This document shows positions 2,801 through 63,649 of a stretch of 64,000 nt of DNA, piece after piece (position 1 is the first letter of the stretch; each line of letters starts with the position of its first letter). The position numbers were made by a program, and so were the translations under genes. The stretch spans positions 1 to 64,000 of the IMG/VR virus record IMGVR_UViG_3300025929_000016; one strand, 5' to 3'. The stretch comes from a virus. Under the pieces are notes generated by a model. The model was not told the origin of the DNA. It did no database searches and worked only from the letters and a program-made list of their open reading frames with translations.

Positions 2801-2885
2801 GCCAGTTGGTACCAGCGTACCAACTGGCCCATTTAAAACGCTTGGCGGGCCTGTCTGATAGCCCTGCTAGGCGTTTTAAATGGGC
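2801..2885 (+). repeat. dispersed hairpin repeat, copy 1
   Basis: An 11-bp perfect stem with a 6-base loop (GCCAGTTGGTA, CCAGCG, TACCAACTGGC; 2801-2828) is followed by a second perfect 15-bp stem (2827-2841 with 2871-2885) enclosing GGGC...GCCC. A smaller GGGC-GCTTT-GCCC hairpin and a short T-run follow to about 2900. It is one of four related copies (with 5035-5087, 24000-24049 and 61139-61183). All lie just after a stop codon and are read in the sense direction, so a 3' end, terminator or RNA-stability element is likely. Confidence 0.7.
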
Positions 2886-3760: not shown

Positions 3761-3997
3761 ATGCCAACGACGGAAAACCAAGAACTAAGGGACGCAGTCA
3801 AGCACATCAGCCACAAGTTCCGCACACCAATGAATGTTATCAGCAGTGCGGGCCAGTTGTTACAGAAGAGCGAGCTGACGGAAAAGCAGAGGGATTATAT
3901 CAACAGGCAGCTACGAGCCATCGACACGATGACCAACGTACTGGATGAACTACTAGATAAGGCCGGTGAACCTACCCGGCATAGTGCAGAAGAATAA
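3761..3997 (+). CDS. stand-alone HisKA (histidine kinase dimerisation/phosphoacceptor) domain
   Basis: All 78 residues match one HisKA/DHp helical hairpin: helix 1 with the H-box ISHKFRTPMNVISSAGQLL (H18), then a turn, then helix 2 (LTEKQRDYINRQL... TNVLDELLDKAGE). No ATPase (HATPase_c) domain, sensor, membrane segment or receiver follows; the gene is closed by a terminator at 4001. In normal kinases the residue after the His is usually Glu or Asp and takes part in autophosphorylation; here it is Lys19. It may therefore act as a decoy or dimerisation partner for host kinases or response regulators. No promoter of its own is clear, so it may depend on read-through past 3738. RBS TTGAGGT lies upstream. 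Confidence 0.8.
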   Translation: MPTTENQELRDAVKHISHKFRTPMNVISSAGQLLQKSELTEKQRDYINRQLRAIDTMTNVLDELLDKAGEPTRHSAEE

Positions 3998-4966: not shown

Positions 4967-5034
4967 GATTTGCTTACCTGTGGGCCAAATAAAGCCCGGT
5001 TTGGGTACCGGGCAAGGTGCCTGCGGCCTAAATT

Positions 5035-5087
5035 ACAGGCCCGCCAAGGCGTTTAATTTACCCGGTTGGTAGGTTGGTACCAACCGG
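5035..5087 (-). repeat. dispersed hairpin repeat, copy 2
   Basis: On the minus strand CCGGTTGGTA-CCAACC-TACCAACCGG (5062-5087) is a 10-bp stem with a 6-base loop. AAATTAAACGCC and TTGGCGGGCCTG follow. It lies 14 bases after the stop of the MazG-like gene, in the sense direction. Confidence 0.65.
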
Positions 5088-6649: not shown

Positions 6650-7093
6650 TTAATCTGCGTTCTTCCGCGCTGCAAGATGTTCAAGAGCTTTCCGCTTGGC
6701 GGCTCGTTTGCCGGAACGCGGCGGTCGTACGGGTTCAACCACCGTGCCTTCCCCGCGACGTAGCTCTTCGAGTTGTTCTTTGGTGTATGGTTTGACATAA
6801 GGTACCATTCCTGAATAAATGTTGAATTGTTGACGCGTCCACCCGGTAATGTCCATAATAGACAATATCATACGAGCTGACAGTACTGCATCCCTAGCCC
6901 AGACATGGCTCAATGTTGAGTGGCTTATGTCCAGCAGTTTAGACAATGTTCTGTTGGACACGGTCTGATTTTCTGCTAGGTCAGGATACAGATGTTCTAT
7001 CAGTTTGTTGTGTAACCGCGTCGGTGTGTAAGAAGGACTATTGAGAACTGATTTGTTGTAAGCCTCAATAGTCCTTTTGCGTGGCTGGCTCAT
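6650..7093 (-). CDS. HTH DNA-binding protein, 147 aa
   Basis: The start at 7093 (MSQPRKRT) overlaps the polymerase stop (ATGA). Residues about 45-66 (VSNRTLSKLLDISHSTLSHVW) read as a helix-turn-helix of XRE type, followed by DAVLSARMILSIMDITGW. The tail (residues 110-147) is very basic (PPRSGKRAAKRKALEHLAARK). It may be a phage regulator or polymerase-linked DNA-binding protein. The 122 bases after its stop, before the glycosyltransferase start, hold no convincing gene. Confidence 0.6.
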   Translation of the reverse strand: MSQPRKRTIEAYNKSVLNSPSYTPTRLHNKLIEHLYPDLAENQTVSNRTLSKLLDISHSTLSHVWARDAVLSARMILSIMDITGWTRQQFNIYSGMVPYVKPYTKEQLEELRRGEGTVVEPVRPPRSGKRAAKRKALEHLAARKNAD

Positions 7094-8979
7094 CCTGCTA
7101 ACCCCCAATTGGCCCCACGACCTACGCTAACCAGCACCGGCACGTTGAGCTTATAAGCGTTGATCATGACTTCTTCCATTTCTCGAGCCGCTTCCTCATG
7201 CTGTGGATTACCGGTCTCAATGCTAAATCCAAGTTCATCATGCACCGTAACAAGAGGATAACCCAACACATCGTATATACCACGACGATGACCTTCAACC
7301 ATGGCCCGCTTTGTGATATCTGCGGAGCTGCCTTGTAGAACAGCGTTTGCAGCAGCATGAGTATGAGCGCGCTTAACAGGTCCAAACCGATCGATGGCTT
7401 CCTGTTTATCTTTGAAAGCATATATCTCTCCAGGCTTCTTGTCTTCCTTACGGATGAACTTGGTTGACTCCCAGAAGTCAAAGCGGCGCTTCCGCTTGCC
7501 TATTGTGCGTATATAGCCCCGGTTGCTGGCCCGCTGCATAGCCGCTTCCATGAAGGCTTTGGCGAACGGTGCCTTTTGGTGGTATAGTTCGAAGATCTTC
7601 TTAGCTTCACTCATAGACAGGCCAAGACTAGCAGCGAGCTTAGTAACGCCCATCCCGTACACCAAGCCAAAGTTGATATTCTTTGCCTGCTTCCGAGTGA
7701 CACCTGTGAGTTGCGCACACATTTCATGAAAGTCTGTGGCCGGGTTTTCAATATACTGTTCTCGTGCAACATCTGCAACGCCTCCGGGGAGGGTCGACGC
7801 AAAGTGTACGAGCAATCGGTATTCAATTTGACTGAAATCGTATCGCAACCACTCTTGCCCATGTTCCGGTAAAAACATGCCACGGCACTTTGCGCTGAAG
7901 TACGGATCTTTCTCCGGGTTGGGGATGTTCTGCAAGTTAGGTTTTGATGCACTAAGCCTGCCCGTAACCGTGCCATACTCGTCGCCCTTTAATTGATTAA
8001 ACTGCCCATGCACCCGGCCATTGACGTTGGACTCAACAATGTAGCCCTTGATAAATGTGTTGAGGAAGTGGCTATACTTCTTGGCCTCACCCATGTCGGC
8101 CAGCATAGGGACTTGGTCTACGAACTTCGCTAGGTTCTTGGCGTTAAGGGCCGGGTTTCCTTTAGCAGTTCGAGGATAGACAATTCCAAGTCGGTCAAGC
8201 TCAGCTGCGATCTGCTTACTAGACTTTGGATTAATTCCGGCAAAGTTAGATTGCAGGTCATGGAGCTTGGCTGTCCACTCAATTTCAAGCTGATCTGCAT
8301 ACCCTGCATCAACTCGCACTCCATTGAGATGCATTCGGGCGAGGATAGGGAGTAGATCACTCTCCATTCTCCATAGGTCTGACATTTCATCTGCTTCCAG
8401 CTCCTTTATCTGGCCGTGTATCATTTCCAAGGGTAAAGCGACGTCCTCCTTTGCATACGGTGCAACCACGTGCGCGGGACATTTCCATATGAACGCTTTC
8501 TCTTTGCCCGGCTTGCAACCATAGTTTTGACGGATAAACGCCTCCATCGCTTCATCCTTTTTGCCGCGACCCAACCGCTTTTGAGCGATCGCCTCCAGGG
8601 AGTATTCGAACTGATTTTCATCAAGCAGCGGCTCGGCGACTTGAACGTCCCAGAAAGGCCCGGCAATCTGTATTCCCTCTGTCCACAGATACGCACACTC
8701 GTACTGAAGATTCGCACCCGTTTTAGGTATTTCAGTTGTAAGTTGATCACGCAGATACCTCCATACAGTTGCTCTGTCCAGGTTGCCGCCGCCTTCGTGC
8801 CGCACCGGATAGTACTCAGACCACGTTCTGCCGTCCGGCCACAGTGCGGCCAAAGCCACGCCTACAATGTAGCCGTCTCGCACCGCGCCCATGCCCTTGT
8901 CGATTAGGTCAGGGTCGTAGGTCTCCAAGTCAACGGCGATTAGCTGCGCCTGCTGTAAGTCGGGATAGGTGACTGTCAT
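7090..8979 (-). CDS. family A (PolA-type) replicative DNA polymerase
   Basis: The 629-residue protein has a DnaQ-like 3'-5' exonuclease domain: AVDLETYD (D17, E19), TGANLQYECAYLW, and YAKEDVALPLEM. The polymerase palm and fingers follow with motif A LRYDFSQIEYRLL (D381), motif B RKQAKNINFGLVYG (430-441, Phe437 at the ribose-selecting position) and motif C VTVHDELGF (D581). There is no 5' nuclease domain, as in other phage PolA enzymes. Stop and start overlap with neighbours by ATGA on both sides. It is the obvious replicative polymerase of this phage, acting with the primase at 16100 and helicases nearby. Confidence 0.95.
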   Translation of the reverse strand: MTVTYPDLQQAQLIAVDLETYDPDLIDKGMGAVRDGYIVGVALAALWPDGRTWSEYYPVRHEGGGNLDRATVWRYLRDQLTTEIPKTGANLQYECAYLWTEGIQIAGPFWDVQVAEPLLDENQFEYSLEAIAQKRLGRGKKDEAMEAFIRQNYGCKPGKEKAFIWKCPAHVVAPYAKEDVALPLEMIHGQIKELEADEMSDLWRMESDLLPILARMHLNGVRVDAGYADQLEIEWTAKLHDLQSNFAGINPKSSKQIAAELDRLGIVYPRTAKGNPALNAKNLAKFVDQVPMLADMGEAKKYSHFLNTFIKGYIVESNVNGRVHGQFNQLKGDEYGTVTGRLSASKPNLQNIPNPEKDPYFSAKCRGMFLPEHGQEWLRYDFSQIEYRLLVHFASTLPGGVADVAREQYIENPATDFHEMCAQLTGVTRKQAKNINFGLVYGMGVTKLAASLGLSMSEAKKIFELYHQKAPFAKAFMEAAMQRASNRGYIRTIGKRKRRFDFWESTKFIRKEDKKPGEIYAFKDKQEAIDRFGPVKRAHTHAAANAVLQGSSADITKRAMVEGHRRGIYDVLGYPLVTVHDELGFSIETGNPQHEEAAREMEEVMINAYKLNVPVLVSVGRGANWGLAG

Positions 8980-10060: not shown

Positions 10061-10109
10061 TTTATATCCTGTATGTTGTGTTAGCAAATACTAACAGGGG
10101 CAATTATAC
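10061..10109 (-). promoter_or_regulatory. leader element and -10 box upstream of the ligase
   Basis: On the minus strand TATAAT (10104-10109) is followed by GTTAGTATTTGCTAAC and then CATACAGGATATAAA before ATG 10060. No clear -35 is seen, so promoter activity is tentative; the leader is a variant of the recurrent CTATACAG element. Confidence 0.45.
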
Positions 10110-12850: not shown

Positions 12851-13734
12851 TACTTGCCTGGATACCCACTACGAGGCTTACCTTCCCCGAGGCGGACTCT
12901 GCTATGTTTGTCGAATTCGCATAGACAGTTCTGTACGTCATGCACCGGTAATTCTATTCCTGTGCGCTGGCGTATTGCACATTGTAGCACAAGAAGTTCC
13001 TCTTGTACACGGTCCGTTTTGATGCTCGCTTCCAGTGGCCGGGCGAAGTAACGATTCAACCCTCGCCTGCTGCCCGGCCCTATAGGTGCCCAAGTCATCC
13101 AGTCGCTGGCGTTGGCGAGGACGGAAGTGTGCTTCAAGTCAGCTACAACCTGACCGGCCATGAAGCTCCCCATGCCGTCGAACCGTGTGAGTTCGTTGTG
13201 GAAATGGTATAACGATTCCCAAGGTAGACTGTCCATGAAAGCCTTGCTGTCATGTATCGGCTTCACCACACGGTCAAGTATATAGTCAATCTTGTCCATG
13301 CTATGACCGTTGGTGCTCACCAGATAAGCGCCTGTCCAGATCTTGGCTCCTTTGGCACGTGCTTCTTTTAACGCCAAACGGATGGCATGAATATACCCTT
13401 CAAATGAATGCACTTCGCACTCAGGGAACCCAATCAATTGCAACGTGCTTTCCCTGTTGAACAACCGGGCGATGACCATGGCCGTAACCATGTTCGGGTG
13501 CGTATCATACGGGTCACGCCAGTTGCGCTTGATCCACTTGGTGACCTTGTCGTCTTCCCGGCGCACGTTGCAGAAGCGATATTGCTGGATGATAGGGTCG
13601 TGCGTCCACGGCGCAGGGAAGCCACTTTCCCTGCCTACCCGCGCCCGTTCGCGCTCTATGATCCAATGGTAAAAGAAAGCCTGATGGTTCTCCAGGCCAG
13701 CGTAGTCAACGAGTGGTGTGAGTGGTATGTTCAT
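12850..13734 (-). CDS. putative alpha-glutamyl/putrescinyl thymine pyrophosphorylase (aGPT-PPlase)
   Basis: The 294-residue protein has WIIERERARVGRESG (residues 24-38) then PWTHDPIIQQYRFCNVRRED (43-61) and DKVTKWI, the diagnostic block of the aGPT-PPlase family, which has a DNA-glycosylase-like helical fold. Later come YLVSTNGHSMDKIDYI, FDGMGSFMAGQVVADLKH (helix-hairpin-helix-like) and WAPIGPGSRRGLN. In phages such as phiW-14 and ViI these enzymes replace the pyrophosphate on 5-pyrophosphoryl-oxymethyl-uracil in DNA by an amine or amino acid. The matching hmdU DNA kinase is not visible in this window. Confidence 0.8.
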   Translation of the reverse strand: MNIPLTPLVDYAGLENHQAFFYHWIIERERARVGRESGFPAPWTHDPIIQQYRFCNVRREDDKVTKWIKRNWRDPYDTHPNMVTAMVIARLFNRESTLQLIGFPECEVHSFEGYIHAIRLALKEARAKGAKIWTGAYLVSTNGHSMDKIDYILDRVVKPIHDSKAFMDSLPWESLYHFHNELTRFDGMGSFMAGQVVADLKHTSVLANASDWMTWAPIGPGSRRGLNRYFARPLEASIKTDRVQEELLVLQCAIRQRTGIELPVHDVQNCLCEFDKHSRVRLGEGKPRSGYPGK

Positions 13735-14135
13735 AAGTCCTCAGTAACGTGTTTCCACGAAATTTTCCTTTTTATTTGGCTCACAGTGGACTGGGAAACG
13801 CCAAAGTTATCGGCAATTCTTTGCTGCGAACCATATGCTTGGTAAATCAACCTCACCAATTCCTCGTCTATAATCGCATTCAGAACCTGTGAGCCTCTGG
13901 GTTGCCTTCCCTTATTAACCTTATCTTTCATATTATCTTCATGCGTACCTAAGAATAAGTGATCAATGTTATAGCAGTTTCGAACATCACACTTATGCAA
14001 CACCTGAAGACCTTGCGGTATTGGACCATGGTGCTTCTCCCACTCAAGACGATGGACTTTGAATATTTTTCGGTTTATGGTGCGTTGTCCATAGCCGTGG
14101 CTTGATGCTCCTTCCCACAGTATGCATGGTGTCAT
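13731..14135 (-). CDS. HNH homing-type endonuclease with C-terminal HTH
   Basis: The N-terminal half is an HNH_3-type nuclease: KVHRLEWEKHHGPIPQGLQV, LHKCDVRNCYNIDHLFLGT and HEDNMKDKVNKGR. The C-terminal half has a helix-turn-helix (QRIADNFGVSQSTVSQIKR). This is the usual build of free-standing phage homing endonucleases. It overlaps the pyrophosphorylase start by ATGA, and it interrupts the modification/helicase gene order, which suggests insertion by homing. Confidence 0.85.
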   Translation of the reverse strand: MTPCILWEGASSHGYGQRTINRKIFKVHRLEWEKHHGPIPQGLQVLHKCDVRNCYNIDHLFLGTHEDNMKDKVNKGRQPRGSQVLNAIIDEELVRLIYQAYGSQQRIADNFGVSQSTVSQIKRKISWKHVTEDL

Positions 14136-23999: not shown

Positions 24000-24049
24000 C
24001 AGGCCCGCCACGGCGTTTAAACAAGGTGGTTGGTATGCTGGTACCAACC
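24000..24049 (-). repeat. dispersed hairpin repeat, copy 3
   Basis: On the minus strand GGTTGGTA-CCAGCA-TACCAACC (24028-24049) is followed by TTTAAACGCC and GTGGCGGGCCTG. It lies 16 bases after the stop of the 67-aa gene (24066), in the sense direction, and before the SNF2 helicase start. Confidence 0.65.
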
Positions 24050-24269: not shown

Positions 24270-24292
24270 GGTTAGATATATCCTGTATAGTT
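24270..24292 (-). promoter_or_regulatory. CTATACAG leader
   Basis: On the minus strand AACTATACAGGATATATC followed by TAACC precedes ATG 24269. It is the closest match to the leaders at 1664 and 59925. Confidence 0.6.
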
Positions 24293-24743
24293 ATGTTGCG
24301 GTGCCAACAGTACGGCAAAACGGCTGTTGTAACAAGTGCCGTTATTTTAGGCCAAACGCTTTACAAATGCTAAAAGTTGTGGTATCGCGCGTCACGTGCG
24401 CGCACAGACAAGGCACTAAAAAATTTTTTAACGGGCATAGGTTTTTACACCTGCTATATGCGCCATTTTTGCGCTAACCCATTGTTTATATTGGCAAAGG
24501 GAAGTGTACACATCTAGGTAACACCCTGTTGCATCTGTTAGCACCTACCTACCAAAACACGGTGTTTCGTTGCCGCAAAGCAAAAGAACTGCCTAAAATT
24601 TAGGCAGTTCCCGTGCATTATTGCTGAGCGTAGTGTTACACCTGTGTGCGTACCTGTAACAAAACTGCCTAAATTTTAAGCAGCATTCACCAAATATTTA
24701 TTTTGAGCATATTCAAACTACTCAAAATGGAGTTTCCAAGTGG
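24293..24743. other. non-coding, iteron-bearing region (origin or control region candidate)
   Basis: No gene is seen here. It holds three copies of a TTACACCTGyTA-type repeat: 24444-24458, 24528-24545 (GTTGCATCTGTTAGCACC) and 24635-24650. It also has two related palindromes (AACTGCCTAAA...) at 24586-24610 and 24663-24683, an AT-rich tract (AAAAAATTTTTT near 24418) and an IR ATTTTGAG/CTCAAAAT at 24700-24728. The same motif families recur at 61791-62244. It separates the end of the structural operon from the start of the early operon. Confidence 0.5.
24586..24610 (-). terminator. 25-base perfect palindrome; possible terminator or operator
   Basis: GAACTGCCTAAA-A-TTTAGGCAGTTC. On the minus strand CTTTTGC follows, so it could terminate the long structural operon that ends at 24744. 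A degenerate second copy lies at 24663-24683 and a third at 61919-61938, which also fits a protein-binding site. Confidence 0.5.
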
Positions 24744-52967: not shown

Positions 52968-53219
52968 TCATGCTCCAGTTATTTCGTACCAGTCGTCGGT
53001 CAAGACGTCCGCTTGTTTGAGTGCCCAGAAGACCACCGTGCCGTCCGTGTTGTACAGATACAACGATGGTACCTTGAGGGTAGAGTGGGCGATCGGCTTT
53101 TGCAGCACGATGTAGGAACCAACCCGGTTCCAACCGCGCCGGGCCACTTTACCGCCTGCTTCCAGGCAGCGTATGGCACGACCGATGTCCCAGTCACCGA
53201 TAGGTTGGGCGATGGTCAC
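52968..53219 (-). CDS. DUF2829/Tad2-like protein (possible anti-Thoeris)
   Basis: The 83-residue protein follows the family layout: DIGRAIRCLEAGGKVARRGW N, then SYIVLQKP, VPSLYLYNTDGTVVFWALKQ and ADVLTDDWYEI. Proteins of this fold include Tad2, which binds the signalling molecule made by Thoeris ThsB and blocks defence. Whether this one binds such a ligand cannot be read from sequence. It is odd in being inside the head operon, coupled to the co-chaperonin gene (ATGA) rather than among early genes. Confidence 0.75.
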   Translation of the reverse strand: MTIAQPIGDWDIGRAIRCLEAGGKVARRGWNRVGSYIVLQKPIAHSTLKVPSLYLYNTDGTVVFWALKQADVLTDDWYEITGA

Positions 53220-53668
53220 AGGATGTAGGTGTCGAGTTTCAGGGGATTGCCGTACACACGTTCGATGACCTCGTGATCATTGACGGTGGCAAAGTACACT
53301 TCCTGACCATCCTTGCCCTTGACGGTGCGACGGTTGCCGCCCCAACGAGGAACGATGACGAAGTCGCCCGGCTCGCACCACGTACCTTCGAGCCACGGCA
53401 GGCCGGTGTCACGATTGCAGAAGGCGAGGTCGCCGACAGCAATGACGCGGGCCACTTGCATATTCCATTTCTCGGTTTCTTTGGTCTCTTCGACCAGGAC
53501 GATGCCGCTGGCAGTCTTCGTATTGTGCGACATCAGTTGCACCAGGATACGAGCGCCGGTAGGAATAACTTCAGGGGATACTTCGGGGAAACGGGACAGA
53601 ACTTCAGGGTCAGTGCGGAAGTCGGCAGCCGCTTTCATGGCGGTGACGATGTAAGGCAGGGCTTTCAT
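53216..53668 (-). CDS. GroES-like (Cpn10) co-chaperonin
   Basis: The 150-residue protein has VIPTGARILVQLMSHNTKTA SGIVLVEE (mobile-loop-like region after SGIVL), a core WNMQVARVIAVGDLAFCNRD, and GTWCEPGDFVIVPRWGGNRR then EVYFATVNDHEVIERV. This fits phage GroES homologues, which work with host GroEL to fold coat protein (T4 gp31 role). Position next to scaffold and coat genes agrees. It is longer than bacterial GroES because of an N-terminal helix (residues 1-35). Confidence 0.85.
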   Translation of the reverse strand: MKALPYIVTAMKAAADFRTDPEVLSRFPEVSPEVIPTGARILVQLMSHNTKTASGIVLVEETKETEKWNMQVARVIAVGDLAFCNRDTGLPWLEGTWCEPGDFVIVPRWGGNRRTVKGKDGQEVYFATVNDHEVIERVYGNPLKLDTYIL

Positions 53669-58983: not shown

Positions 58984-59645
58984 GCGGTGATTAGTGTTGC
59001 AGGATGGGCAATAGCAAAATGACAACTAGTCTAAAATTTTCAACAGGCTGCGAGTGGGCCATAGTCCAGAATTCTTTCTCCTCCTGGGGTGCGACCGATG
59101 CCCATGAGCAACTGATATCCTACGAGCAAGAGTTGCCACCAAGCACTCTTTCCTGATCACAACATTACTGACAAGCAACTGTTGCCGAGTGACAATGTTG
59201 CATACACACAACGTTACCTATCAGCAACTCATGCCTAGTAGCAAGCCATTGCCTAGCCAGGTTCATGCTCGATAGTAATAGTTGCAAATAATAAATATAT
59301 ATTTCCTGTAGGATACTGGCATGAATTAGCTCCCAGCAAGTACCGTGCCATGGTGCAGATAGGAAAGATTTGCTGGCACACTTCTTGTCTAGCATGAACC
59401 ATGCCTGCTATCCTTGCCGACAAGCAATTGTTAATTCCAATTGTTAAATGCACGGTTCCACAGCGTCCTCAGATGGACGCGTATTCCATTTAATTTTCGG
59501 TGCAGACTACCACAGACGCACCCTAAAAATAATGGAATTGCATTTTCTGGCATGGATTGTGCTTAGAATGCCCATGGGCAATGGAACGCTGGCATGGTTC
59601 ATGCTACGTGTACGCGCCCACGCATCGCGCCTTACATTAGGCTAA

Positions 59646-59675
59646 GGTTGGCACTGCTAACAGGCAGTGCCAACC
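59646..59675. promoter_or_regulatory. 12-bp perfect stem-loop
   Basis: GGTTGGCACTGC-TAACAG-GCAGTGCCAACC. The 6-base loop and GGTTGG start recall the dispersed hairpin repeat, but the arms differ. No T-run follows. Confidence 0.55.
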
Positions 59676-59924: not shown

Positions 59925-59942
59925 AACTATACAGGATATATC
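59925..59942 (+). promoter_or_regulatory. CTATACAG leader
   Basis: AACTATACAGGATATATC runs into ATG 59943. A possible TTTACA with TATTAT 19 bases on lies about 110 bases upstream (near 59829-59858), so the promoter is less clear than the leader. Confidence 0.6.
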
Positions 59943-61102: not shown

Positions 61103-61106
61103 ATCA

Positions 61107-61131
61107 AAAGCCCGCCAAGAGCGGGCTTTTT
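61107..61131. terminator. bidirectional terminator between converging genes
   Basis: AAAAGCCCGC-CAAGA-GCGGGCTTTT. It ends both the plus-strand block and the minus-strand small terminase gene. Confidence 0.85.
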
Positions 61132-61138
61132 AACGTCT

Positions 61139-61183
61139 GTTGGTACCAGCATACCAACTAGGCCAATTAAACGCCGTCAGCGT
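61139..61183 (+). repeat. dispersed hairpin repeat, copy 4
   Basis: GTTGGTACCAGCATACCAAC (61139-61158), 7-bp stem with 6-base loop, then AATTAAACGCC. The GGCGGGCCTG part seen in the other copies is missing. It lies 36 bases after the stop of the plus-strand gene, past the terminator. Confidence 0.6.
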
Positions 61184-61187
61184 CCAT

Positions 61188-61727
61188 CTATGCGTCGCCA
61201 GCTACCTTTGCCGGTGCCACGCCCGCCCCACTTACAGCAGCCTGCGCCGCCAGTGCTTGCTTCAGCCTATCCTTCGCGGTAACAGTCTCCATCGGCCCAC
61301 CATCCTTGCCAGTCAGTTCCACGGCAGCAGTCTCCTTCCACTTCGCACGTGTCTTGAGCCAGAACTTTGTCATGTCAGGTGACTGACCGCTCATCGCCAT
61401 CTGCAACGCAACCTTTGCCACCATGACATTCGGCAGATGCTGGCTGACAGTCAGCTCTTTCACATAGTACTTCTTCAGCAGCTTGAGTTCGATATTGAGC
61501 GCAAGGGCAATGTCCTTTGGCTCCAGGCCCATGCATGTGAGTACGGATACCTCTCGTGCTTGTGCTGGCGTTGGATTGAAGCCCGGTGAGTTATGACCGG
61601 GCTTTAGTTCAATACCTTTCTCCTTCAGGAGTTCAACATGTAGTTCTCGCAGGCGAGCTTCGGCGTCCTTCGGATCCTCGTATTCGCCGAGTCCCAATGA
61701 ATCCCAATCTATGGCTTTAAAGGACAT
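61188..61727 (-). CDS. terS: terminase small subunit (putative)
   Basis: The 179-residue protein has PTPAQAREVSVLTCMGLEPK DIALALNIELKLLKKYY, an HTH with the usual terminase sequence, then LPNVMVAKVALQMAMSGQSP, TKFWLKTRAKWKETAAVEL. This block (HTH, oligomerisation helices, FWLKTRAxWKE) is typical of phage small terminases. The Ala-rich tail would contact the large subunit. Its gene is unusually separated from terL by 2.5 kb that includes plus-strand genes. Confidence 0.8.
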   Translation of the reverse strand: MSFKAIDWDSLGLGEYEDPKDAEARLRELHVELLKEKGIELKPGHNSPGFNPTPAQAREVSVLTCMGLEPKDIALALNIELKLLKKYYVKELTVSQHLPNVMVAKVALQMAMSGQSPDMTKFWLKTRAKWKETAAVELTGKDGGPMETVTAKDRLKQALAAQAAVSGAGVAPAKVAGDA

Positions 61728-61761
61728 TTTGTTACTCCTGGTTTAGCAATAATATGAGTGC

Positions 61762-61790
61762 ATATTAGCATGAGAATTGCTGGACGGCAA
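61762..61790 (-). promoter_or_regulatory. late promoter, TTGC...GCAA family, extended -10
   Basis: On the minus strand TTGCCG (61785-61790), 17 bases and TAATAT (61762-61767) preceded by TGC. TTGCCGTCCAGCAA is the dyad. It lies 35 bases before ATG 61727 of the small terminase. Confidence 0.7.
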
Positions 61791-62244
61791 GCAGGTTTTA
61801 TCGTGAAAAAGTGTTAGGTGTTACCCTGTCGTTACATCTGTTAGCACCTCCCACGCAAAACCAATATTTGGCGCGTGGCTAAGTCAAAACACGACGTTTT
61901 GCTGGCACGCTTTTTGCCAACTGCCTATTTTTTAAGCATCCGGTACATGTTACCCTTGTTACACCTGTTACCACACCACGGCGCGATGACACCAATATAA
62001 ACAAGCACTTAACAACCAATCACGTCCAAATGTTACCGACTTGGCATACACCCGCCATAGGGGACGCAGATGCAATTGCAAAAACCGTTTCTGATTTTGT
62101 TTTGTTTGCCCTACTTTATTGCACCTGCTACCACTGCAAAACGCCCTTGTTACAGGCCCACGGCAACCTCTTAATGTACCACTTGCAGGAGCCAGCCCGC
62201 ACCCGTTAAACTGGCAACCTTTACGTAACAAAATAGGAGGAACC
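61791..62244. other. non-coding divergent region with iteron-like repeats (second origin-like region)
   Basis: No gene is seen between the small terminase promoter and the HNH gene. Repeats of GTTACACCTGTTAGCACC type lie at 61831-61848, 61958-61975 and 62118-62134. AACTGCCTATTTTTTAAGCA (61919-61938) matches the palindromes at 24586 and 24663. A TGGCACG-CTTT-TTGCC element (61903-61918) looks like a sigma54 promoter. The region parallels 24293-24743. Confidence 0.5.
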
Positions 62245-62922
62245 ATGAAGGGCGATCGGGATATACAGGCCGATTACATGCGGGTAATGAACAAAGCCCA
62301 TGCGATAGGTGAGCATGTCTTTATGACAGGACACGGTGACCAACTCGGCAATGTCAGTATCCGTTGCAGCGATGGCAAGATACGACGCGGTCATGTCATA
62401 GTGTGGGAAATGCATGCCAACCGAGAAGCGCCTATCGGCATGTATGTAGTGCGTAAGTGTGAGACTCAGGGATGCATACGCCACGAACACCTGGAGCTTA
62501 TCACACCTCAGGAGCGTGAGAACAGGAAGAAAAAGAAGTTTGCCGAGATGTCCCAGCTCGAAAGGGAAGTACGCGAAGCCAACCGCATACGAGTAGAGCA
62601 CGATGGCCTAGGCCCGGACGAAGTGCGAGGCATCTACTTCGACCCACGCAGCTATAACAAGCTGGCCGAAGCATATGGCATCAGCCGAACTACCGTGTAC
62701 AAGATCAAGAAAGGTAAGATCTGGGCACATACCACCGGCCACGTACAAGAAGGTGAAGTGGAGCCGAGACGCGACCACCGTCAAAAGCTGACGGATGAAC
62801 AGGTTATAGCGATACGCGAAGACACAAGACCGGCGCGGAAAGTAGCTGCTGATTACGGAGTATCGCATGTGACTGTGTACCGCATCAAGAACTTCCTCGA
62901 ACGTATCAACGTAAGCTACTAG
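62245..62922 (+). CDS. HNH-type endonuclease with two C-terminal HTH motifs, 225 aa
   Basis: ATG 62245 follows a perfect TAGGAGG. The N-terminal part contains RGHVIVWEMHANREAPIGMY, VRKCETQGCIRHEHLELITP and ENRKKKKF, which is an HNH-like fold with C-x4-C and H-x-x-L. Two HTH units follow: SYNKLAEAYGISRTTVYKIK and ARKVAADYGVSHVTVYRIKN. This is the build of homing endonucleases, but the first catalytic His is less clear, so it may be a regulator derived from one. Confidence 0.7.
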   Translation: MKGDRDIQADYMRVMNKAHAIGEHVFMTGHGDQLGNVSIRCSDGKIRRGHVIVWEMHANREAPIGMYVVRKCETQGCIRHEHLELITPQERENRKKKKFAEMSQLEREVREANRIRVEHDGLGPDEVRGIYFDPRSYNKLAEAYGISRTTVYKIKKGKIWAHTTGHVQEGEVEPRRDHRQKLTDEQVIAIREDTRPARKVAADYGVSHVTVYRIKNFLERINVSY

Positions 62923-62931
62923 GAGAATAAC

Positions 62932-63354
62932 ATGGCAAGACAATTAGACCAGATGCAGCGAGGATACATGGCCCTGGGATGTCCACGCTGTGGCTTCTTC
63001 GGCACCCAAGGATGTCCACGAGGAGATGCTGATTGCCCGATGGGTAGATACATCCCTCCCAAGACACCGGAGCAGTTGCTGGAGGAAGAGGTCAATAAGC
63101 TCCTGCCAGTAAAGAACTTCCGTGTGCACATAAAGAAGACTGAGAACTCTACCATGTGCCGCGTATCCATGTCAATCATAAACGAGCGGATGCATGACAT
63201 CGGCGCCATGCCAGCGGACACGGAACCAGTCGTTATCATGCGCATGGTAGAGGCTTACCGGGCAGGGTTGGAACGTGGTAAAGAAGATGGCAAACAGCAG
63301 TTCCAGAAAGAGTTCAGGGACTTTATCGGCGCAGCTAAGGACATGGGAGACTGA
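62932..63354 (+). CDS. Cys-rich hypothetical protein, 140 aa
   Basis: The N-terminus has ALGCPRCGFFGTQGCPRGDA and DCPMGRYIPP, three or more Cys pairs likely to bind zinc. Then comes a long helical part (TPEQLLEEEVNKLLPVKNF, MVEAYRAGLERGKEDGKQQF). It follows the HNH gene by nine bases and precedes the HTH gene by one base. No family is recognised. Confidence 0.65.
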   Translation: MARQLDQMQRGYMALGCPRCGFFGTQGCPRGDADCPMGRYIPPKTPEQLLEEEVNKLLPVKNFRVHIKKTENSTMCRVSMSIINERMHDIGAMPADTEPVVIMRMVEAYRAGLERGKEDGKQQFQKEFRDFIGAAKDMGD

Positions 63355-63355
63355 C

Positions 63356-63649
63356 ATGACGAGTCGATTATTGCGCAACTATCAGCTATCACTGGACTAT
63401 GCTCACGGCGCGACGCTAGAACAATTAGCTTTCAAGTACGACGTCTCACCTGGACGCATACACCAGATATATGTGGAAACGATGGCTAAGTGTGCCCTCA
63501 TAAGGTTCGACAAGCCTACACAGGCGATTAAGCTGCTAGAACACTTAAGATACTGGGAGGCGAAGAATAACGCGAAACGAGACACTCCTGAATACCATTA
63601 CATGTTTGAACGTGGTGAACTAGACTACAGCTCTTTCTACTCACAATAA
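63356..63649 (+). CDS. HTH protein, 97 aa (sigma-factor region 4-like)
   Basis: ATG 63356 starts one base after the preceding stop. The core (YAHGATLEQLAFKYDVSPGR IHQIYVETM) is a helix-turn-helix of the kind seen in sigma region 4 and small phage regulators. The C-terminus (AIKLLEHLRYWEAKNNAKRD) is helical. It is a candidate transcription regulator of this phage, possibly acting on the late promoters; that link is inferred. Confidence 0.65.
   Translation: MTSRLLRNYQLSLDYAHGATLEQLAFKYDVSPGRIHQIYVETMAKCALIRFDKPTQAIKLLEHLRYWEAKNNAKRDTPEYHYMFERGELDYSSFYSQ

Follow-up and report, generated by a model that had tools for sequence, protein, structure and literature searches.

A dyad-symmetric repeat next to stop codons in a tailed phage genome: a putative protein-binding site at transcription-unit ends

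A sequence with dyad symmetry, GTTGGTACCARCNTACCAAC, was found in exactly four copies in a phage record of 69,251 bp (both strands, up to three mismatches), of which 64,000 nucleotides, here called the window, are the whole stretch of DNA that was analysed. All four copies are intergenic and lie beside stop codons; new here is an orthologous copy in a relative, contig L029, at the junction matching that of copy 4. Our tentative preference is for a symmetric sequence-specific site, putatively bound by a dimeric protein, which may act at the ends of transcription units.

The virus carrying the repeat, which is uncultivated, looks like a tailed, lytic, DNA-modifying phage, judging from its protein family matches, which comprised terminase large subunit, portal, head protein, DNA polymerase, helicases and primase, and further thymidylate synthase, a MazG-like protein, the glucosyl-HMC glucosyltransferase family and 5-hmdU DNA kinase. 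Given this gene content, the thymines of the phage DNA are probably modified. Neither integrase nor transposase was found among the proteins scanned, a subset of the open frames. Proteins with helix-turn-helix domains are encoded at 62119-62922, 63275-63649, 13731-14135 and 6650-7108; in the first and third of these an HNH endonuclease domain is joined to the helix-turn-helix domains. Two other products were recorded: in a frame of 78 amino acids (3761-3997) the sole match was to the HisKA dimerisation/phospho-acceptor domain (E 5e-13), a kinase catalytic domain being absent, and a protein of 150 amino acids in the structural gene block (53216-53668) matched chaperonin 10 of the GroES type (E 5e-8).

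Sequence of the repeat

The four copies, two on each strand (Table 1), agree with those listed in an initial annotation of this DNA, which had also proposed a search for more; in the full 69,251 bp no fifth copy was present at up to three mismatches. Arms GTTGGTA and TACCAAC surround a 6-nt centre in every copy. Alignment of the cores yielded an invariant GTTGGTACCA, followed by R-C-N and then TACCAAC, the centre being conserved as well as the arms. The consensus of the whole element is a TTGGTAC-YA-RC-N-TACCAA core, 8 unconserved bases and then a box, TTAAACGCC or a variant of it, whose distance from the core is constant in all four copies. Dispersed dyad repeats of phages are short inverted motifs at several sites of one genome, and four such sites are present here. 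Since the 20-nt core is 93% and the TTAAACGCC box, at its fixed distance, 83% identical among the four copies, as against 35% for the 8 nt between them, both sequence and spacing appear to have been kept; the thresholds of the patterns were set after the copies had been seen. The 12 nt after the box are 65% identical among all copies and 94% among copies 1-3, and beyond about 10 nt outside the element the identity is 30-39%.

Two properties of the repeat had been described in a more uniform manner than was found. The shared tail is present as exact TTTAAACGCC in copy 3 only, with TTTAAAACGC in copy 1 and ATTAAACGCC in copies 2 and 4, and a second tail, TGGCGGGCCTG, is restricted to copies 1-3. 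The constant 6-base loop holds as a 6-nt centre in all copies, but copy 1 pairs further, to a stem of 12 bp with a loop of 4 nt.

In the window, a second exact occurrence on either strand was seen for only two 20-mers, GTTGGTACCAGCATACCAAC and TACCAACCGGGTAAATTAAA; six third-order Markov sequences contained none. GTTGGTACCAGCATACCAAC is the core of copies 3 and 4. TACCAACCGGGTAAATTAAA forms the right arm in copy 2 and recurs on the other strand as the left arm in copy 3. Because these two copies have it in common in inverted orientation, arms were apparently exchanged between copies. Copies 2 and 3 share 77% identity along 70 nt and look like portions of a larger palindrome, TTTAA-N8-core-N8-TTAAA.

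Table 1. Positions of the repeat copies, their downstream boxes and adjacent terminator-like hairpins in the window
Feature	Positions	Strand	Remarks
Copy 1, core dyad GTTGGTACCAGCGTACCAAC	2805..2824	+	stem extends to 2801-2828, 12 bp, 4-nt loop
Copy 1, downstream box TTAAAACGC-TTGGCGGGCCTG	2833..2853	+	8 nt past core; within long inverted repeat 2827-2885
Copy 2, core dyad GTTGGTACCAACCTACCAAC	5065..5084	-	17 nt past stop 5102
Copy 2, downstream box TTAAACGCC-TTGGCGGGCCTG	5036..5056	-	
Intrinsic-terminator-like hairpin GCCCGGTACCCAAACCGGGC + TTTATTT	4994..5013	-	51 nt past copy 2 core
Copy 3, core dyad GTTGGTACCAGCATACCAAC	24029..24048	-	17 nt past stop 24066
Copy 3, downstream box TTAAACGCC-GTGGCGGGCCTG	24000..24020	-	
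Bidirectional intrinsic-terminator-like hairpin AAAAGCCCGCCAAGAGCGGGCTTTT	61106..61130	.	adjoins copy 4
Copy 4, core dyad GTTGGTACCAGCATACCAAC	61139..61158	+	convergent-gene junction; orthologous copy L029 2428-2447 (-)
Copy 4, downstream box TTAAACGCC	61167..61175	+	without second half KTGGCGGGCCTG

Several other repeats were noted in the window. Directly past copy 1, positions 2827-2885 form a near-perfect inverted repeat with two arms of 29 nt, which includes an inverted TTTAAAACGC box. Repeats are shared by two non-coding regions that precede leftward units (24528-24558 and 61831-61861, 84% over 31 nt), and the wider regions, 24280-24690 and 61730-61950, also share AACTGCCTAaaTTTTAAGCA-like stretches; these paired regions are possible promoter or origin regions. 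Their counterparts in the related genome G002 (L018 5045-5100, L020 1395-1445) share a repeat with each other which is of different sequence. A leader motif, (CT)ATACAGGATATA, stands just before start codons at 1665-1678, 24277-24290 (-), 59927-59940 and 10063-10074 (-) and is likely an extended ribosome-binding motif; its counterpart in G002 is TACAGGAGATA, at three sites. A perfect 12-bp inverted repeat, GGTTGGCACTGC-N6-GCAGTGCCAACC, lies at 59646-59675, within about 1 kb of non-coding DNA that also contains other short repeats, e.g., 59390-59413 and 59583-59606.

Position at gene ends, RNA folding and terminators

Fully non-coding DNA makes up 8.7% of the 20-mer positions, so that four intergenic copies out of four would be expected by chance with a probability of about 6e-5; the distances from core start to nearest stop are 11, 17, 17 and 29 nt for copies 1-4. 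Among 5570 fully non-coding 20-mers, 1033 (18.5%) have a stop within 36 nt and 548 (9.8%) have one within 17 nt. All of these percentages move with the gene calls, which stem from a list made by hand with a few short frames guessed. The copies are nearer to stops than the non-coding space predicts.

Upstream of copy 1 is a gene on the plus strand (stop 2793), upstream of copy 2 a MazG-like one on the minus strand (stop 5102) and upstream of copy 3 a small minus-strand frame (stop 24066); a SNF2-type helicase gene starts 64 nt after copy 3 (ATG 23964). Copy 4 is situated between a plus-strand frame, 36 nt past its stop (61102), and a convergent minus-strand gene (61188-61727), 29 nt past its stop (61188); the product of the latter gave a weak match to small terminases. 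The copies had been thought to lie always in the sense of the upstream gene, with copies inside genes or in antisense named as evidence to the contrary. For copies 1-3, where both neighbouring genes run in the direction of the element, this was confirmed, and no copy is inside a gene; copy 4, however, is antisense to its nearer gene. It is in sense to the plus-strand gene, yet the intrinsic-terminator hairpin at 61106-61130 separates the two. The orientation rule is thus based on three cases, and three out of three is weak evidence.

Stem lengths are 12, 10, 8 and 7 bp in copies 1-4 and about 5 bp in L029. Compared with 200 shuffles, the predicted RNA folds of copy 1 (z -7.0, 2794-2900) and copy 2 (z -3.1) were not equalled by any shuffle, and additional hairpins follow in both; for copy 4 z was -6.0 and -4.0 on the two strands. 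Nothing remarkable was seen in the region of copy 3 (z -0.96), whose fold was equalled by 34 of 200 shuffles. Covariation was assessed for 11 pairs in five sequences, which gives low power: five pairs were invariant and one had changed on both sides, vs. a mean of 1.7 such changes in shuffled data, where 460 of 500 shuffles were as high. Since the stems shorten and an excess of covariation is lacking, the sequence, including the centre, appears to be conserved more than the pairing, a weak indication with five sequences.

When a stem containing G+C with a U-tract in sense was taken as the mark of an intrinsic terminator, a terminator scan did not flag copies 1, 2 and 4; on the sense strand only copy 3 was flagged, its 8 bp stem having the tail ACCTTGTTTA, and the flag on copy 2 was solely on the antisense (+) strand, with a 10 bp stem and then CCTTTTTAAA. 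Intrinsic termination in sense by copies 1, 2 and 4 is unlikely. Separate hairpins resembling intrinsic terminators are present near copies 2 and 4, in L029 and, in a weak form, near copy 1; near copy 3 no canonical terminator was found. A comparison with Rfam yielded no match above gathering score in the window, and two far below it on the four loci; tRNAs were absent at the copies. A promoter scan detected no sigma-70-like promoter beside any copy, and the element is therefore not considered to be a classical operator.

Relatives and searches beyond the record

L029, a contig of 6,397 bp, was found by terminase searches (TerL 76%, TerS 55% identical); its homologue of the convergent gene 61188-61727 is 44% identical. 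Between the same two genes as copy 4 it contains TGTGGTACTAGCATACCAAC, in the same orientation and beside a terminator hairpin. The core bases are equal to those of copy 4 in 17 of 20 positions (three mismatches). In 5000 shuffles of the 159-nt junction no match with four or fewer mismatches arose, the best having five, twice. The outer stem pairs are broken in L029 and the inner sequence is retained; the adjacent terminator hairpin has the same position as in the window and a different stem sequence. Its retention by a relative at this junction suggests that the element is a functional site at the ends of genes.

Of the relatives examined at the copy 4 junction, one in four (L029) has kept the element, the 6.4-kb contig covering this junction only. 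The same junction in L031, G001 and G002 is devoid of it, the best matches showing 9, 10 and 6 mismatches, respectively; that of G002, within a long inverted repeat, is given no weight, and L031 and G001, which came from one sample and look near-identical at the junction, are not independent. Two further contigs, L028 and L030, do not extend as far as the junction and were left out. Terminator-like hairpins are present there in all four relatives. Apart from G001 and G002, searches for close relatives by polymerase, helicase and TerL brought up no more than one distant contig and some short ones, and a search with one structural-block protein yielded none. Among named phage records the TerL relatives were below 60% identity, and TerS gave two weak matches.

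Viral contigs contained no match to two composite patterns. Genome contigs contained two single matches to an 18-base pattern, which were rejected, as chance alone would give 7-8 by our own estimate. A looser pattern, TGGTACYARCNTACCAAC, retrieved 22 stretches in the contig search: 16 were in open frames of at least 150 codons, two more represented one coding sequence at contig ends, one was the L029 contig itself, two were the two ends of the 18-kb contig G003, and one (L111) was not placed. A stretch of 19 bases identical to the core in G003, an unrelated contig, was taken as chance. Runs of TACCAA half-sites, partly in 8-bp steps, were observed near both ends of G003 (18,254 bp), which are L006 (270-315) and L025 (215-285); the runs lie in sequence which is inverted between the two ends, and one of them holds the 19-base identity. 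From its translation alone, a protein of 588 amino acids in G003 looks like a protein-primed DNA polymerase. Comparison with phage records by blastn covered copies 1 and 3; copy 1 had no match, and 25-nt matches of copy 3 to Vibrio phages (E 0.5) were judged to be chance. Among the papers searched, none was found to report the motif or to contain the string GTTGGTACCAGC.

Comparison with known systems and possible functions

Cluster O mycobacteriophages contain 17-bp dyad repeats, TGTTCGG-NNN-CCGAACA, with 34 copies in Corndog; their function is unknown, and binding of dimeric proteins was predicted by the authors (PMC4351075). Among the systems compared, they are the closest precedent for the element. 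Both have 7-bp inverted motifs with a short centre and are dispersed in phages without obvious lysogeny; the Cluster O repeats are mostly not at promoters and are absent from other mycobacteriophages, according to the available parts of that paper, which we count as a likeness (PMC4351075). The sequences differ. About a third of the Cluster O copies are inside genes, the centre is 3 bp, and neither a tie to stop codons nor a fixed second box is reported in the parts available (PMC4351075), whereas the element described here has four copies, all intergenic and by stops, a 6 bp centre and a box 8 bp further on. Stoperators of Cluster A phages are also repeated short sites, at which RNA polymerase is proposed to stop when a phage protein is bound; they lack symmetry, point in the direction of transcription, and serve temperate phages as binding sites of the immunity repressor (PMC4351075, PMC9283540, as far as available). 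The present element is likewise repeated over a phage genome, but its core is nearly symmetric, copy 4 is in antisense to its nearer neighbour, and a repressor was not found. ESAS of Cluster K, start-associated sequences with 17 bp inverted repeats and of unknown function, similarly combine repeated boxes and an imperfect inverted repeat in intergenic phage DNA; they are described, in the part of the source at hand, at gene starts (PMC3203893), in contrast to the gene ends here. With intrinsic terminators the element has in common a hairpin near gene ends, and terminator-like hairpins adjoin copies 2 and 4, but it does not possess a consistent U-tract in sense, and stem sequence and centre are conserved. 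By these comparisons it would represent a small new family within a kind already known, unusual in its tie to stop codons.

The favoured explanation is that a dimeric DNA-binding protein of phage or host would recognise the dyad and, bound at the ends of transcription units, block or slow RNA polymerase; this could reinforce termination or insulate adjacent units, the site acting like a symmetric stoperator. Between the conserved boxes the 8-nt spacer is scrambled, which together with the older copy 4 points to selection on sequence. The notion of one functional element at 3' ends, put forward in the initial annotation, is well supported by the second box at fixed distance, the placement next to stops and the orthologous copy in L029. 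A binding site is further favoured by the terminator-like hairpins near several copies and by the presence of helix-turn-helix proteins in the phage. Counting against it are the HNH-endonuclease-like nature of two of these proteins, the absence of a canonical terminator near copy 3, the absence of a listed sigma-70-like promoter, the small number of sequences (five in all) and the junctions of L031, G001 and G002, which do without the motif. Placement at 3' ends is accounted for just as simply by a hairpin-forming RNA, which would either protect the upstream mRNA from exonucleases or be cut by an RNase III-type enzyme so that transcripts are separated. Such an RNA, or the processing site proposed earlier, is favoured by the positions 11-29 nt past stops, the strong folds of copies 1, 2 and 4 and the further hairpins after copies 1 and 2; it is disfavoured by the unremarkable fold of copy 3, the stems, which shorten from 12 bp in copy 1 until about 5 bp are left in L029, the low number of two-sided pair changes (1 vs. 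1.7), and the location of copy 4, in sense, behind a terminator hairpin, where it may be untranscribed from that side. We regard the RNA hairpin as doubtful but a close rival, and a symmetric binding site at gene ends as only somewhat more likely.

A small palindromic repeat, spread in the phage by recombination or transposition and tolerated only between genes, without present function, would explain the similarity of copies 2 and 3 over 70 nt, their inverted TACCAACCGGGTAAATTAAA, which points to exchange, and the intergenic location of every copy, as expected if insertions into genes were lost. This mobile palindrome, also among the earlier proposals, seems unlikely in view of the unconserved spacer between conserved boxes, the older copy 4 retained by L029 at the same junction, the lack of a transposase among the proteins scanned and a clustering at stops beyond non-coding expectation. 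Plain intrinsic (Rho-independent) terminators sharing their stem by chance are very unlikely: the scan flagged copy 2 on the plus and copy 3 on the minus strand, and all four relatives have terminator-like hairpins at the copy 4 junction, but copies 1, 2 and 4 were not flagged in sense, separate hairpins stand alongside copies 2 and 4, and an invariant stem sequence is not required for termination. The unusual terminator considered previously is less well supported than a functional element as such, with the U-tract mostly absent in sense and copy 3 alone flagged. Extremely improbable is a DNA-processing site of the phage, for packaging (pac-like) or recombination; the copy conserved in L029 adjoins a gene with a weak match to small terminases, and arms of 7-11 bp around a 6-bp centre resemble what we take to be the geometry of tyrosine-recombinase sites, but four copies at gene ends across the genome, and no integrase among the proteins scanned, speak against it.

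For the protein-binding site, the most specific version, i.e., a stop-linked symmetric site which ends or insulates units in a DNA-hypermodifying phage, a counterpart of the stoperator for lytic growth with its own putative binder, is quite unlikely when taken with all its parts. The small family, right at gene ends and with an orthologous copy, makes the four sites individually testable. Should the element not be a marker of transcript ends, it would be a modest case of a selfish or structural repeat; if it is such a marker, bound by protein, it would set borders of transcription units that are overlooked by searches for hairpins and U-tracts.
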